DNA from: Anaerolineae bacterium
Lineage (GTDB): Bacteria; Chloroflexota; Anaerolineae; Aggregatilineales; Phototrophicaceae
DNA: 64,000 nt
Reading direction: 5' to 3'
Assembly (NCBI GenBank): GCA_022822305.1
Contig: JAJEBY010000016.1
Span: forward strand, 744,001-808,000
Program-made: the position numbers and the translations under genes
The notes under the pieces: model-generated
Told to the model about the DNA's origin: nothing
Databases searched by the model: none
What the model saw: only the letters and a program-made list of their open reading frames with translations
In this document: one piece after another, positions 29,642 through 35,588 of the stretch
Layout of the letters: each line of letters starts with the position of its first letter
Numbering within the stretch: the first letter of the stretch is position 1

Positions 29642-30160
29642 TCAAATTTGATCGCTGAAGCGCATTTTGATACTATCGTCGTGATCGTAACTGACGTGCG
29701 CGAAGCAGGGCAGCTGCCCTTCCCGCATCGAGAATAGACGAGGCAGCAGTTGCGGAAGATCGTCGACCAAATCATAATCCAACACCGTGGCGCGCGGCAC
29801 CCACTGCAACTCGCCTTCGGGAGAATAGCGCTTCACGTCGCGGGTGTCGCTTTCGGCAGTGAATACAAATAGCAAGATCCCGCTGGCCTCGCCGGCGTCG
29901 ATATTGTGAACGGATCTCAAGCGCAAGTTGCGCACCGCCAGGCCACTCTCCTCTTCAATCTCACGCAGCGCGCTGCTGTACGGGTCTTCGTAGCGCTCAA
30001 TATGACCGCCGAGACCGTTGTACTGATTGGGGAACACGCGTTTGTGCGAAGCGCGTTTCATCAATAGTACAGCGTCGTCATTGGTGACGAATGATAGCGT
30101 CCTGGCGATGCACAGCCAGCGATTTGACGTGGCGTCCGCGCCCTGCGCTTCGGCGCCCAT
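29642..30160 (-). CDS. NUDIX hydrolase
   Basis: Nudix box GGHIERYEDPYSSALREIEEESGL. Confidence 0.92.
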   Translation of the reverse strand: MGAEAQGADATSNRWLCIARTLSFVTNDDAVLLMKRASHKRVFPNQYNGLGGHIERYEDPYSSALREIEEESGLAVRNLRLRSVHNIDAGEASGILLFVFTAESDTRDVKRYSPEGELQWVPRATVLDYDLVDDLPQLLPRLFSMREGQLPCFAHVSYDHDDSIKMRFSDQI

Positions 30161-30252: not shown

Positions 30253-31071
30253 ATGAATACGAATCCGAATAGCTCGCCGTTACCGGATTTGTGCATAGTC
30301 GATATCAATGACGTAATCCCGCACGAAACCGGCGATGAGCAGCGATCGCGGCCATTGATGCGGCGTCTGGAGCATGCTGAGATATTCACCAATCCGCCGG
30401 TTGTCGCGGCCATCAATGATGGGAAATATGTGTTGATGGACGGGGCCAACCGTCACTATGCGCTGAAGCAGCTGGGTTACAAGCATATTCTCGTTCAGGT
30501 GGCCAGTTACGATTCCCCTTTCATTAAGTTGGGCGTCTGGCAGCATATCGTGGCTGACTGGAATGCGAGAGATTGCCTGAGAAATCTCGAGGCGATCGAA
30601 GGCACAAGCATACGCGACGGATGGGATTCGAGCGCGGTCGCGCAGGTATTGCTTAGGGACGGGCCGGTGTATGGCGTTCACGCAAATGTCGACGGTGTCT
30701 TTGAACGCAACGCGGCGCTGCGTGATGTGGTGAACGCCTATCATGATCACGCGACGCTTTATCGCACGCCATTGACCGATCCATCGCAGATTTGGTCTTG
30801 GTATCCGAGTGGCGTCGCCTTGGTTATGTTTCCCACCTTCGCGCCGGAGCATGTCATTGAGGCGGCAGTCAGGGGCGCGCATTTCCCGCCGGGCGTTAGC
30901 CGTCATATCATTCACGGTCGCGCGCTAAACGTGAACTATCCCATGCAAAGGCTGCGCGAAGACGCGTCCGTAGAACAGAAAAACGAAGTGTTCAAGATGT
31001 GGCTGCAGCAGAGACTATCCGAACGCAGCGTGCGATATTATGCCGAAGCTACTTATCAGTTCGCTGAGTAA
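30253..31071 (+). CDS. ParB/Srx-fold protein resembling SerK/SbnI free-serine kinases
   Basis: VDINDVIPHETGDEQRSRPLMRRL...PPVVAAINDGKYVLMDGANRHYALKQLGYKHILVQVASYD: ParB-like core with PHE and DGxxRxxALKxLG motifs. Confidence 0.65.
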   Translation: MNTNPNSSPLPDLCIVDINDVIPHETGDEQRSRPLMRRLEHAEIFTNPPVVAAINDGKYVLMDGANRHYALKQLGYKHILVQVASYDSPFIKLGVWQHIVADWNARDCLRNLEAIEGTSIRDGWDSSAVAQVLLRDGPVYGVHANVDGVFERNAALRDVVNAYHDHATLYRTPLTDPSQIWSWYPSGVALVMFPTFAPEHVIEAAVRGAHFPPGVSRHIIHGRALNVNYPMQRLREDASVEQKNEVFKMWLQQRLSERSVRYYAEATYQFAE

Positions 31072-31080
31072 GCGCAGACG

Positions 31081-31521
31081 ATGAATTCGACCGCTCGGAA
31101 AGCCTTGGCGGAAGCAGCCCTCTACAGCGACGGCGTCGAATATAAGCTGGTCAAGTTAGCGCCTAACGCAATCACGCTGGCGGCGGGCATCGTCGCCGAA
31201 GCCGGTTGTCCGTTTGCTTCAATGATCGCGGACAAAGATGAGGTCAGCTTGATATTGCCGGCAGACGCATGCCAAGCGTTCGAGCGACGCCTGCGGCTGG
31301 CGGAGATTAGCGATATGAGTTATCGCTTGCTGACGTTTGACGTCATTCTCGAGCCGAATCTAGTAGGATTTTTGGCGCTGATCAGCCAAAGCCTTGCGGA
31401 CGCAAACGTGCCGGTGTTGGCCTTCGCCGCCTATTCCCGCGATCATATCTTTGTGCCCGCATCGCGATTTGATGACGCATATGCCGCCATCGAGTCGCTG
31501 CGCCTGTCGACCGAGCCATAA
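31081..31521 (+). CDS. ACT-domain-like protein
   Basis: LVGFLALISQSLADANVPVLAFAAYSRDHIFVPASRFDDAYAAIESL resembles ACT domains of the ACT_7 type; N-terminal second copy possible. Confidence 0.65.
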   Translation: MNSTARKALAEAALYSDGVEYKLVKLAPNAITLAAGIVAEAGCPFASMIADKDEVSLILPADACQAFERRLRLAEISDMSYRLLTFDVILEPNLVGFLALISQSLADANVPVLAFAAYSRDHIFVPASRFDDAYAAIESLRLSTEP

Positions 31522-31533
31522 GGCAGACTTCCC

Positions 31534-31896
31534 GTGGAAATCAATCTCTTCAACGATGCCAATCTTGTGCCACAGCCGAAACATAAGGTCAAAATCGAGG
31601 ACATGACCGCCAGTCCCTATGCTGATCGGTTTCGTGTGAAAGTTGGTTTGAAGATTACGCCATTTCAAGAGCGGCCCAACCTGATTGTGGTCGCGCGGCG
31701 ATCCGATGGCCAACTGGTTAGCGATCTGGATATCATCGCGACTATGCACTACGAAAACGAATACACGATGCATATTCGCGGCGTCGATGAGCCGGAAGGA
31801 ACATATACCTTGTCCGCCGAGCTCTATTACGAGACGCGCAATCCAGCGCAAGATAGCCGCGAAATCACCTTCAGCATACCGGCGGGCGACGGTTGA
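31534..31896 (+). CDS. Hypothetical small protein, probably beta-rich
   Basis: 120 aa, GTG start, 12 nt after the ACT gene and 1 nt before the JAMM gene. Confidence 0.65.
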   Translation: MEINLFNDANLVPQPKHKVKIEDMTASPYADRFRVKVGLKITPFQERPNLIVVARRSDGQLVSDLDIIATMHYENEYTMHIRGVDEPEGTYTLSAELYYETRNPAQDSREITFSIPAGDG

Positions 31897-31897
31897 T

Positions 31898-32446
31898 ATG
31901 ACTTACCGGATAGACGCCGACGTTGCCCGCGAGATCGCCAATCACGCGCGGTCGCGGTATCCGGACGAGGCTTGTGGATTGATTGCCGGGCGCCATCAGC
32001 GCATTTCGTTCGCGGTGGCTTTGCGCAATGTCGCTCAAGAGCCGCAAAAGGAATTCGCCATCGAGCCTGCGGAGCAACTGCGAGCGCTGAAATCGATTGA
32101 CGCTGAGGGGTTGAGATGGATCGGGGTTTATCACTCGCATCCCTTCTCCGCGCCGATTCCGTCTGCCGAGGATCTTGACAGCGCGCATGATTATGGTCTG
32201 CTTCAGCTGATCGTCTCGCTGCGGGGCGGCAAACCCGCTTTCAAGTTGTGGCAATTGCATGAGTTTGGCGCTGACCCGCTTGACCTGCACTTTGATGGCG
32301 AACGGGTACCCGACGTCAGTGATCCTCGATTGACCCAGCAGCAAAGGCTGGCGATGCTGATAGCCGGGGCGCTGGCGGTCTTGCTAGTGCTTGTCATCGC
32401 CTTCAGCTTGTTGCCGCCGGCGCCGGACCTCTCCGTGATTCGTTGA
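31898..32446 (+). CDS. JAMM/MPN (Mov34) metalloprotease with C-terminal membrane anchor
   Basis: PDEACGLIAG...YHSHPFSAPIPSAEDLDSA JAMM motif (E, HxHP, SxxD); C-terminal TM LAMLIAGALAVLLVLVIAFSLL. Confidence 0.9.
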   Translation: MTYRIDADVAREIANHARSRYPDEACGLIAGRHQRISFAVALRNVAQEPQKEFAIEPAEQLRALKSIDAEGLRWIGVYHSHPFSAPIPSAEDLDSAHDYGLLQLIVSLRGGKPAFKLWQLHEFGADPLDLHFDGERVPDVSDPRLTQQQRLAMLIAGALAVLLVLVIAFSLLPPAPDLSVIR

Positions 32447-32453
32447 GACGAAT

Positions 32454-33317
32454 ATGATGCTTCAGCTGTCGGAAATGCTTTTGCTGGCAGCGGCGGCAAT
32501 TGTCGCCGGCGGCGTGGCAAATGCGCTGGCCGACGACCTGCCGGCCGGGCGAAGGCTGGGCCGTCCCAGGTATGCCGACGGCCGGGTACGCCCGATGTGG
32601 GCGTGGCTGGGACTAAGCGCCTTCGTACTCGATCGATTTCCGTCTCGCTTGATGAAGACGACTCAGCCGGCGGCCGAAGGCGGCTCCGACCAGTCGAGGC
32701 TCGGACTGCGATACCCGTTGACCGAATTAGTCACGGCCGCCCTTGCGCTGATATTCTACTCCACAACCAGGCATTTGATAGGCGGCGCTTTATCCATGTG
32801 GCTGTCGCTTGCGTATGCGATGCTATACACACTGATCGGCGTCGTGGATATCGAGCGGCGCCGCATCCCGGCAGTGACATTGCTTCCGTTGGCGGCATTG
32901 GCTCTGCTGGATGCCGCATACATAACGGAAACGGGTCCAAATTTGGGTTCAGCGATTGCCGGCGGATTGTCAGGATTCCTGATATTCTATCTGGCATTCG
33001 CGGGTGGGATGCTCTTCGCCGCTGCTATGAAGCGCCTTCAGAAGCGGACTCTGGGCAGCAGCGCCCTCGGATTCGGCGATGTCATGTTGATGAGCGTCGC
33101 AGGCATGATTGTTGGATTTCCCGGCATTCTGGCAGCGATTTGCGTCACCATTCTTGCCGCTGCCGCCGGAGCAGTTGCAATCATCGTCAGGCACTACGCA
33201 ATCGAGGGGACGTACAGTGGATTCGCGCGGATGCCATACGGACCGTATATTCTTTTCGGCGCAATTGTCGTTCAGTTGTTGCGAAGCCAGTTGACAGCGC
33301 CGATGCTCGGCGTGTAA
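32454..33317 (+). CDS. A24 type IV prepilin peptidase-like membrane protein
   Basis: LRYPLTELVTAALAL, GVVDIERRRIP, LGFGDVMLM: both catalytic Asp contexts; no N-terminal CxxC pairs. Confidence 0.82.
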   Translation: MMLQLSEMLLLAAAAIVAGGVANALADDLPAGRRLGRPRYADGRVRPMWAWLGLSAFVLDRFPSRLMKTTQPAAEGGSDQSRLGLRYPLTELVTAALALIFYSTTRHLIGGALSMWLSLAYAMLYTLIGVVDIERRRIPAVTLLPLAALALLDAAYITETGPNLGSAIAGGLSGFLIFYLAFAGGMLFAAAMKRLQKRTLGSSALGFGDVMLMSVAGMIVGFPGILAAICVTILAAAAGAVAIIVRHYAIEGTYSGFARMPYGPYILFGAIVVQLLRSQLTAPMLGV

Positions 33318-33321
33318 GACG

Positions 33322-34413
33322 CTAGTAGTCGAATTGGTTGATCACGCCGCCGCCCAGGCAATTGTCGCCAAGGTATACAACCGCTGATTGTCCCGGCGTA
33401 ATATCTCGCTGCGGTTCATCGAAGACGATAGACATGCCGCCATCGACAATCGGATTGATGAGAGCCGGCTGCGGCGTCGAACGGTAGCGAATCTTGACCG
33501 TTGCCCGAAAGGCCTGTCGTGGCGCGGCGCCGCTGACCCAATTCACTTGCCGGGCGACAAGCCTGTCTCGTCCCAGCTCGCCTTTGGTTCCGACTACCAG
33601 CACATTCGCATTGGCGTCCAATTCGAGGACGTACAATGGCTCGGCGAAGGAAACACCCAAGCCCTTGCGCTGGCCGATAGTATAGTTGACAAGTCCTTGA
33701 TGCTCTCCCAATCGTTCGCCGTTTCTCCGCAGGATCGGACCGGCCGCCATGACTTCCGGCGCGTGCAGGCGCAAGAATTCACGATAGTCGCCGTCTCCCA
33801 GAAAACATAGATCCTGACTGTCGCGCTTGCTCTCCACGTCCAGACCAAAAGACTTGGCCAGCTCCCGCACTTCGGCCTTGGGATACTCACCCACCGGAAA
33901 CATGGTACGAGCCAATTGTGATTGCCCCAGCACACTTAAGACATAACTCTGGTCTTTGTTGAGGTCCAGTCCGCTGCGCAAGCGGCACAAGCCGTCCGCA
34001 TCCACATCAATTCGGGCGTAGTGACCAGTCGCGAGGTAATCAGCGTCCAGGGCCAAAGCGTGATTTAAGAGCCAGTCGAAGCGGATATGACGGTTGCATT
34101 CGAAGCAGGGATTGGGTGTATTGCCATGTTTATGCCCATCGATGAAGAACTGGACAACTTTTTGGCGAAAGATGTCTTTGCTGTCCAGCACGTAAAAAGG
34201 AATGCCGAGCTTATCGGCAATGCGGCGCGCATCGGACATTTGCTGCGGCGTGCAACAGCGATTGTGCTCCGGCCCGCCGAGCGCGGGATCAGACCACAGT
34301 CGCATCATCATGCCCACGACATCGTAGCCCTGCTCTACCAGCAATGCGGCAGCGACCGAGCTATCGACTCCGCCGCTCATGGCGACGACGACGCGTGTAT
34401 TGGAGTTGCTCAT
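33322..34413 (-). CDS. mnmA: tRNA-specific 2-thiouridylase
   Basis: VVVAMSGGVDSSVAAALLVEQGYDVVGMMMRLW, TGHYARI, DQSYVLSVL, KRDSQDLCFL. Confidence 0.96.
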   Translation of the reverse strand: MSNSNTRVVVAMSGGVDSSVAAALLVEQGYDVVGMMMRLWSDPALGGPEHNRCCTPQQMSDARRIADKLGIPFYVLDSKDIFRQKVVQFFIDGHKHGNTPNPCFECNRHIRFDWLLNHALALDADYLATGHYARIDVDADGLCRLRSGLDLNKDQSYVLSVLGQSQLARTMFPVGEYPKAEVRELAKSFGLDVESKRDSQDLCFLGDGDYREFLRLHAPEVMAAGPILRRNGERLGEHQGLVNYTIGQRKGLGVSFAEPLYVLELDANANVLVVGTKGELGRDRLVARQVNWVSGAAPRQAFRATVKIRYRSTPQPALINPIVDGGMSIVFDEPQRDITPGQSAVVYLGDNCLGGGVINQFDY

Positions 34414-35588
34414 GAGACCGGCGCGCCTTGCAGACGCCGCAGCTTTGCGACTGACGCCGCCAAAACATCGAGCGCATAATCGATATCGTCTGCGGTCGTG
34501 TGCAGCCCCACGGACAGGCGCAGGCCGCATTTGGCCTCGGAAGGGGTGAATCCAAGGCCGAGCAGAATCTCTGACGGTTCAGGGTCGCCGGTTTTGCAGG
34601 AGGAGCCGCTGCTGGCGCAAACGCCGCCCATATCGAGGTGCATCAACAAGGCATTGGCATCAACGTCCGGTATCACGAAACTGGCGTGCGAGGGCAAGCG
34701 CTGGGTGGGATGGCCGCTTATCTCAGCGCCGGGCACGCTTTCCAAAATCCCTTGAATCAGGCGGTCGCGCATGGCTGCGAAGTGCGACAGACGCGCCTCG
34801 TTTTCCTGATACGCCAGTTCGAGCGCCTTGGCCATACCCACAATGAATGCGGTATTGTGGGTGCCGGCGCGCCGTCCGTCTTCGTGACTGCCGCCGCTTT
34901 GGGATGGTTCGAGCTGGATGCCGTTCTTTACATAGAGAATGCCAACCCCTTTGGGACCGTAAAACTTGTGGGCGGACAGACTCAGCATGTCTACGCCTAG
35001 CTCGTTGACATCAAGACTCAATTGTCCGCCGGCTTGTACGGCATCGGTGTGGAATGGTATGTCGTACTCATGAGCTATGCTCGACAGCAGCGGCAGATCT
35101 TGAATGACGCCGACTTCGTTGCTGGCATAGATGACGCTCGCGATTGATCCGCCACGTTGGCACGCGGCGCGGAAGGCCTCGGTCATAACCCGGCCGCTCT
35201 TGTCGACGGGTACGATTTCCATTTCGAAATCCATCAGGTTGCGCATCTGCCGCATGGTGTTGATCACGGCGCTGTGCTCGACTGGCGTGGTAATCAGGCG
35301 GGTGAGAATGCCGCGACGTCGGGCGTTCCAGGCGGCGCCGCGAACGGCAAGATTGTCGCTCTCGGTACCACAGCTGGTGAAAACGATCTCGCGAGCCGCA
35401 CAATTCAAGATGCCGGCGATAGTTTCGCGAGCGTCTTCAATCGCGCTCTCGCCGCGATGACCTTGTCGATGCGATGCGGTGGAGTTGCCAAATACCTCGC
35501 CAAAGTAGGGCAACATCGCCTCGATGACGCGCGGATCCACTGGCGTCGAGGCCGAATTGTCCAGGTAGACTTCCCGTTTGGGTACCAT
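34410..35588 (-). CDS. Cysteine desulfurase (NifS/IscS type)
   Basis: VYLDNSASTPVDPRV, SLSAHKFYGPKGVGILYVKNG, GGVCASSGSSCKTGDPEPSEIL; 4-nt overlap with mnmA. Confidence 0.95.
   Translation of the reverse strand: MVPKREVYLDNSASTPVDPRVIEAMLPYFGEVFGNSTASHRQGHRGESAIEDARETIAGILNCAAREIVFTSCGTESDNLAVRGAAWNARRRGILTRLITTPVEHSAVINTMRQMRNLMDFEMEIVPVDKSGRVMTEAFRAACQRGGSIASVIYASNEVGVIQDLPLLSSIAHEYDIPFHTDAVQAGGQLSLDVNELGVDMLSLSAHKFYGPKGVGILYVKNGIQLEPSQSGGSHEDGRRAGTHNTAFIVGMAKALELAYQENEARLSHFAAMRDRLIQGILESVPGAEISGHPTQRLPSHASFVIPDVDANALLMHLDMGGVCASSGSSCKTGDPEPSEILLGLGFTPSEAKCGLRLSVGLHTTADDIDYALDVLAASVAKLRRLQGAPVS

Follow-up and report, generated by a model that had tools for sequence, protein, structure and literature searches.

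The window analyzed here, a 64,000-nt stretch of an Anaerolineae genome, carries a predicted operon of five genes on the plus strand at positions 30253–33317. The spacing between consecutive genes is 9, 12, 1, and 7 nt, and the ORF coordinates agree with the layout of five same-strand genes given in an earlier note made from the sequence alone. The codon-position composition is of the coding type in all five ORFs. Gene 1 (30253–31071, 272 aa), which opens with an ATG, is followed by gene 2 (31081–31521, 146 aa), gene 3 (31534–31896, 120 aa, with a GTG start), gene 4 (31898–32446, 182 aa), and gene 5 (32454–33317, 287 aa). Outside the operon, a divergent nudix-like gene assigned by eye (29642–30160, minus strand) also lies 5′ of gene 1 in most relatives. 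On the other side is a convergent gene for an MnmA-like tRNA thiolase (33322–34413, minus strand; called by resemblance), and beyond it one for an IscS/NifS-like cysteine desulfurase (34410–35588, minus strand; by resemblance and a class V aminotransferase match); most relatives have both in collinear position. We noted that this MnmA-like and IscS-like pair (33322–35588, minus strand), convergent and directly 3′ of the operon in most relatives, consists of users of cysteine sulfur.

Gene 1 is a member of the SerK/SbnI superfamily of ParB-fold free-serine kinases, and it falls outside both named equivalogs. No Pfam family matched the protein, ParB included. Against NCBIfam it reached SbnI (7e-19) and SerK (2e-10), each under the curated cut-off (68.1 bits against 350 for the SbnI equivalog NF033589, and 40.3 bits against 380 for the SerK equivalog NF053625), and a phmmer search of the PDB placed SbnI at the top (7e-13) and SerK next. 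An AlphaFold2 model built from 25 homologs (pLDDT 88.9) was compared with solved structures; SbnI was best (2e-17), then SerK (2.5e-14), with nearly the whole length aligned, whereas ParB and Noc aligned over the core only (TM about 0.25). The model gave no fold evidence for an extra DNA-binding domain. SbnI, the serine kinase of staphyloferrin B in Staphylococcus, is nearest to gene 1 in both full-length sequence and fold; when the structures are aligned, identity is about 22%, and Glu20 and Asp58 are kept. SerK, the ADP-dependent serine kinase of Thermococcus kodakarensis, for which ADP is the phosphate donor, shares the fold at about 15% identity.

Glu20 and Asp58 of SbnI have been reported as necessary for kinase activity (PMC9641203). 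In the phmmer alignment they correspond to E25 and D63 of gene 1, which are invariant across about 117 homologs, as are H24, D28, R31, R67, W96, H98, R217, and R223. Superfamily placement follows from the fold match to SbnI and SerK together with these conserved equivalents. Gene 1 probably encodes a free-serine kinase of the SerK/SbnI type, with E25 and D63 as its predicted catalytic residues, and serine phosphorylation is its likely activity. The earlier note had proposed this type from a ParB-like core with IPHET and DGANRHYALKQLG; both are present in the sequence, SbnI proved closest in the PDB search, and the catalytic glutamate, on whose alignment with SerK/SbnI the proposal was staked, pairs as E25 with SbnI Glu20. 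A SerK-like archaeal protein has been found to bind CTP (PMC12704722).

The second protein had been described as ACT-like, and gene 2 indeed matches the Pfam ACT_7 (CASTOR-type) domain (E = 1e-8), with weak PDB matches to CASTOR2 and VC0802. Judged solely from its family, gene 2 is a possible amino-acid sensor; it is missing in some operons that retain genes 1 and 3. Gene 3 had no match in Pfam or NCBIfam. Its model (pLDDT 91.7) is a small all-beta sandwich of seven strands, whose Foldseek matches were GH2 sandwich domains with nothing function-specific among them, and it adjoins gene 1 or gene 2 in several families. A CysO-like ubiquitin-fold protein was ruled out for gene 3 by the seven-strand model. 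Gene 4 is predicted to encode a JAMM/Prok-JAB metalloprotease-like protein: it matches Pfam Prok-JAB over the cut-off (2e-20) and a desampylase model under the cut-off (3e-24), and by reading of the sequence it has a complete JAMM motif (HxHx7SxxD; HSHPFSAPIPSAED), an upstream Glu, and a hydrophobic segment at its C-terminus. Gene 5 is a putative A24-like membrane peptidase, with a Pfam Peptidase_A24 match over the cut-off (9e-11) and two catalytic Asp residues found by reading, one within GxGD and the other earlier. Some relatives have a shorter A24-like version. Pfam matches and intact motifs thus bear out the JAMM and A24-like assignments that genes 4 and 5 had been given before.

Every one of the 34 genomes sampled from the genus (own genome counted) had gene 1, as did 51 of 61 relatives. 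Across 80 named loci, mostly from Anaerolineae or Chloroflexi MAGs, the five genes were collinear in 63; the random gene order in relatives that the earlier note had held would count against the operon was thus not seen. The flanks were usually collinear too, with nudix 5′ and mnmA, iscS, and eno 3′, so that operon synteny partly reflects common descent; the five-gene order exceeds chance, and shared ancestry explains part of it. A reading from a small sample, in which genes 4 and 5 were confined to the family of this genome, gave way to this wider set. In other families with different flanks, genes 1 and 3 remain together, with or without gene 2, and genes 4 and 5 are absent from these operons; deeper in the Chloroflexota, gene 3 is often missing where gene 1 occurs. 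One genus has a gene for a secreted esterase-like protein inserted after gene 1 and before gene 2 (L038:10097–11317, plus strand). A plasmid search for gene 1 returned distant Bacillota relatives only, the best one inside a siderophore cluster. The SbnI-type gene of Bacillus is found in such a cluster, whereas gene 1 here lies with ACT, JAMM, and A24 genes.

A check of the rest of the genome for cysM, cysO, and serB, as the earlier note had suggested, found CysM and CysO homologs and a SerB-like gene outside the window. The genome has 11 places with PLP fold-type II enzymes, one of which is cysteine-synthase-like and of the CysM type (G000:C2:12374–13336), outside the operon. A CysM-type ortholog (at least 60% identity) was present in 46 of 51 gene-1 genomes versus four of 10 others, a difference that was not significant by genus (10/12 versus 4/9, p = 0.16). 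In some relatives the CysM type occurs with neither gene 1 nor cysE, and many cysE-positive genomes carry instead a cysK adjoining cysE. At the position of Arg220 in Mycobacterium tuberculosis CysM (reference sequence identical to 3dwg), all CysM-type sequences examined have Lys and the cysE-linked CysK has Gln. Compared with the MtCysM type of O-phosphoserine sulfhydrylase, the synthase at G000:C2 has a basic residue there; this Lys is suggestive and non-specific, because E. coli CysM has Arg at the same position.

The genome also carries a JAMM–CysO–MoeZ operon (L268:3621–5873, minus strand; G000:C16 near 949 kb), whose ThiS-type protein matches M. tuberculosis CysO (3dwg_C, 3.6e-14) and whose third gene encodes a MoeZ-like ThiF–rhodanese protein. 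The CysO-like protein runs about ten residues past its GG and may therefore need trimming, perhaps by the adjacent JAMM. Another small ThiS-like protein, with GG as its last residues (L256:1498–1770, minus strand), adjoins a BNR-repeat-like gene. As for the supply of O-phosphoserine, the genome has a class V aminotransferase adjoining a SerA-like gene, together with a SerB-like gene located two genes upstream of SerA, so O-phosphoserine may also arise from 3-phosphoglycerate. Among possible users of O-phosphoserine, tRNA-dependent cysteine synthesis was rejected, as the SepRS match in this genome reached 19.6 bits, far under the cut-off.

A gene 1 that provides the O-phosphoserine for cysteine would be expected where serine acetyltransferase is absent. 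Among the 61 close relatives, cysE (scored over the TIGR01172 cut-off) was found in five of 51 genomes with gene 1 versus seven of 10 without it (Fisher p = 1.7e-4), and by genus in 2/12 gene-1 genera versus 6/9 others (p = 0.03). A phylum sample of 400 genomes, with a cysE threshold of E ≤ 1e-40, gave 3/28 with gene 1 versus 214/372 without (p = 1e-6). By genus this became about 4/21 versus 125/204 (p = 3e-4), a genus being scored positive if any member has cysE and one genus containing both types. Kinship is allowed for in these tests only to the extent of collapsing to genus, and an incomplete MAG can look as if it lacked a gene. A comparison within the same class gave 2/21 versus 9/20 (p = 0.015) in its less biased form; an alternative same-class count of 2/21 versus 19/30 is biased, because part of its negatives came from the cysE list. 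Since gene-1 relatives are usually without cysE, gene 1 is probably an alternative first step toward cysteine. Some gene-1 genomes have cysE as well.

Distant homologs of gene 1 occur in contexts that point to serine and O-phosphoserine, though not to any one use. A 585-aa SerA–SerK fusion (L097:5995–7752, minus strand) matches the PGDH model over residues 8–320 and the SbnI/SerK domain over 317–584. A 913-aa protein (L100:4296–7037, plus strand) combines three parts, a dehydratase-like PLP enzyme, a SerA-like domain, and a SerK domain; in a second genome of the same genus, a frame matching dehydratase–SerA–SerK ends at a contig edge (L101:2–1687, plus strand). These fusions are reminiscent of the Desulfurococcales, where serK adjoins serA. 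Elsewhere the homolog adjoins cystathionine beta-synthase (at L093 with a model match over the cut-off, at L083 by resemblance) or, in two genomes, the O-phosphoserine-dependent tryptophan synthase TrpB2 (at L095 with a model match over the cut-off, at L044 by resemblance), and indolepyruvate oxidoreductase-like genes assigned by eye lie beside it at L095 and L098. The cysteine link, which the earlier note had called speculative, gains support from the absence of cysE, the CysM-type synthase, the CysO operon, and these distant fusions and neighbors.

We lean modestly toward a model in which gene 1 is a free-serine kinase whose O-phosphoserine feeds CysM/CysO cysteine synthesis, replacing or backing up CysE. 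Its observed basis comprises the family and fold of gene 1, the catalytic residues, gene order, the inverse distribution of cysE, the homologs of CysM, CysO, and MoeZ, and the fusions and neighbors. The gene 1 protein would convert serine into O-phosphoserine, which the synthase of the CysM type, encoded at another place in the genome, would take up to form cysteine. A thiocarboxylated CysO-like protein would serve as the sulfur carrier, and the JAMM adjoining CysO would release the cysteine. In these Anaerolineae, serine phosphorylation would thereby replace or back up serine acetyltransferase. Gene 2 would probably tune serine phosphorylation through amino-acid binding and gene 3 may partner the kinase, while genes 4 and 5 are assigned no part. 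Kinase activity, the phosphate donor, the substrate preference of CysM, the direction of flux, and what genes 2–5 do are the components that we infer. Several observations weigh against the model: gene 1 scores under both equivalog cut-offs, 3-phosphoglycerate is a second potential source of O-phosphoserine, cysE accompanies gene 1 in some genomes, the CysM type occurs in others that have neither gene, CysM lies outside the operon, its association with gene 1 is not significant by genus, and its Lys is non-specific.

The same kinase might instead make O-phosphoserine mainly for tryptophan synthesis by TrpB2, or send carbon from serine back to 3-phosphoglycerate, a function suggested for SerK in archaea (PMC5120207). 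Two genomes place a homolog beside TrpB2, others encode a SerA fusion, our genome has a TrpB2-like gene, and TrpB2 enzymes are reported, in work cited in PMC11917138, to use O-phosphoserine. We nevertheless consider this unlikely: neither TrpB2 nor SerA adjoins gene 1 in its own genus, and such uses alone would leave the absence of cysE in gene-1 genomes unexplained. Somewhat less likely again is that gene 1 is an SbnI-type regulator of its neighboring genes, one that binds either DNA or a nucleotide and has little or no kinase activity. SbnI has been described as both transcriptional regulator and kinase, and its relative EdeB binds the promoter of its own cluster (PMC9641203); the invariant catalytic residues argue against a purely regulatory role, as does the lack of an added DNA-binding domain by fold, and the SerA fusion and the pairing with PLP enzymes suggest metabolism.

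The operon as a whole could also form a single serine-to-cysteine proteolysis unit, in which gene 4 would act on CysO-cysteine in the manner of Mec and gene 5 would participate. The frequent collinearity of the five genes and the intact JAMM motif of gene 4 fit such a unit, whereas the conserved flanks weaken the argument from synteny, and operons of other families dispense with genes 4 and 5 while keeping genes 1 and 3. The comparison of gene 4 with Mec, raised in the earlier note, is itself weakened because a different JAMM gene directly adjoins CysO and MoeZ, and gene 4 showed no genomic pairing with CysO. Nor was anything found connecting gene 5, or proteolysis, to serine phosphorylation, a connection that the same note had drawn, and we judge the single unit quite improbable. 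A ParB-type partition or DNA-clamp protein is the least credible reading of gene 1: the ParB-CTPase fold core is common to both, but ParB and Noc match only there, SbnI and SerK align nearly full length, and the Pfam search returned no ParB. Partitioning was therefore ruled out as strongly disfavored.

The favored model, O-phosphoserine from gene 1 feeding CysM/CysO synthesis, has counterparts in two known systems. T. kodakarensis has been proposed to make cysteine from serine through O-phosphoserine without a clear serine acetyltransferase, and it has both O-phosphoserine routes, from serine and from 3-phosphoglycerate (PMC5120207); its SerK lies outside any operon, whereas gene 1 lies within one. 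For the CysM/CysO/Mec/MoeZ cysteine pathway of M. tuberculosis (PMC3227635), homologs of CysM, CysO, MoeZ, and the JAMM protein are all in this genome. This genome differs from M. tuberculosis in keeping CysM away from CysO, in adding a serine kinase, in having a CysO-like protein that extends past GG, and in carrying Lys where CysM has Arg220.

A literature search, in a collection lacking most subscription journals, found no SerK/SbnI proteins tied to the Chloroflexota. We tentatively raise the possibility of a bacterial lineage that phosphorylates rather than acetylates serine for cysteine, combining a SerK-type kinase with CysM and a protein-bound sulfur carrier, served by a dedicated sensor of the ACT type and by a beta-sandwich protein as a new partner, with the kinase fused to SerA in relatives. 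If true, free-serine phosphorylation for cysteine would extend beyond a few archaea into a large bacterial group, which would explain cysteine synthesis in many Anaerolineae without serine acetyltransferase and assign a role to proteins that annotation readily labels ParB-like or hypothetical. It would also predict lineage-specific uses of O-phosphoserine. Finally, we noted SerK-like clusters with TrpB2 and/or indolepyruvate oxidoreductase-like genes (L095:4361–8550, minus strand; L098:661–4070, plus strand), suggesting that tryptophan or indole metabolism draws on O-phosphoserine there.
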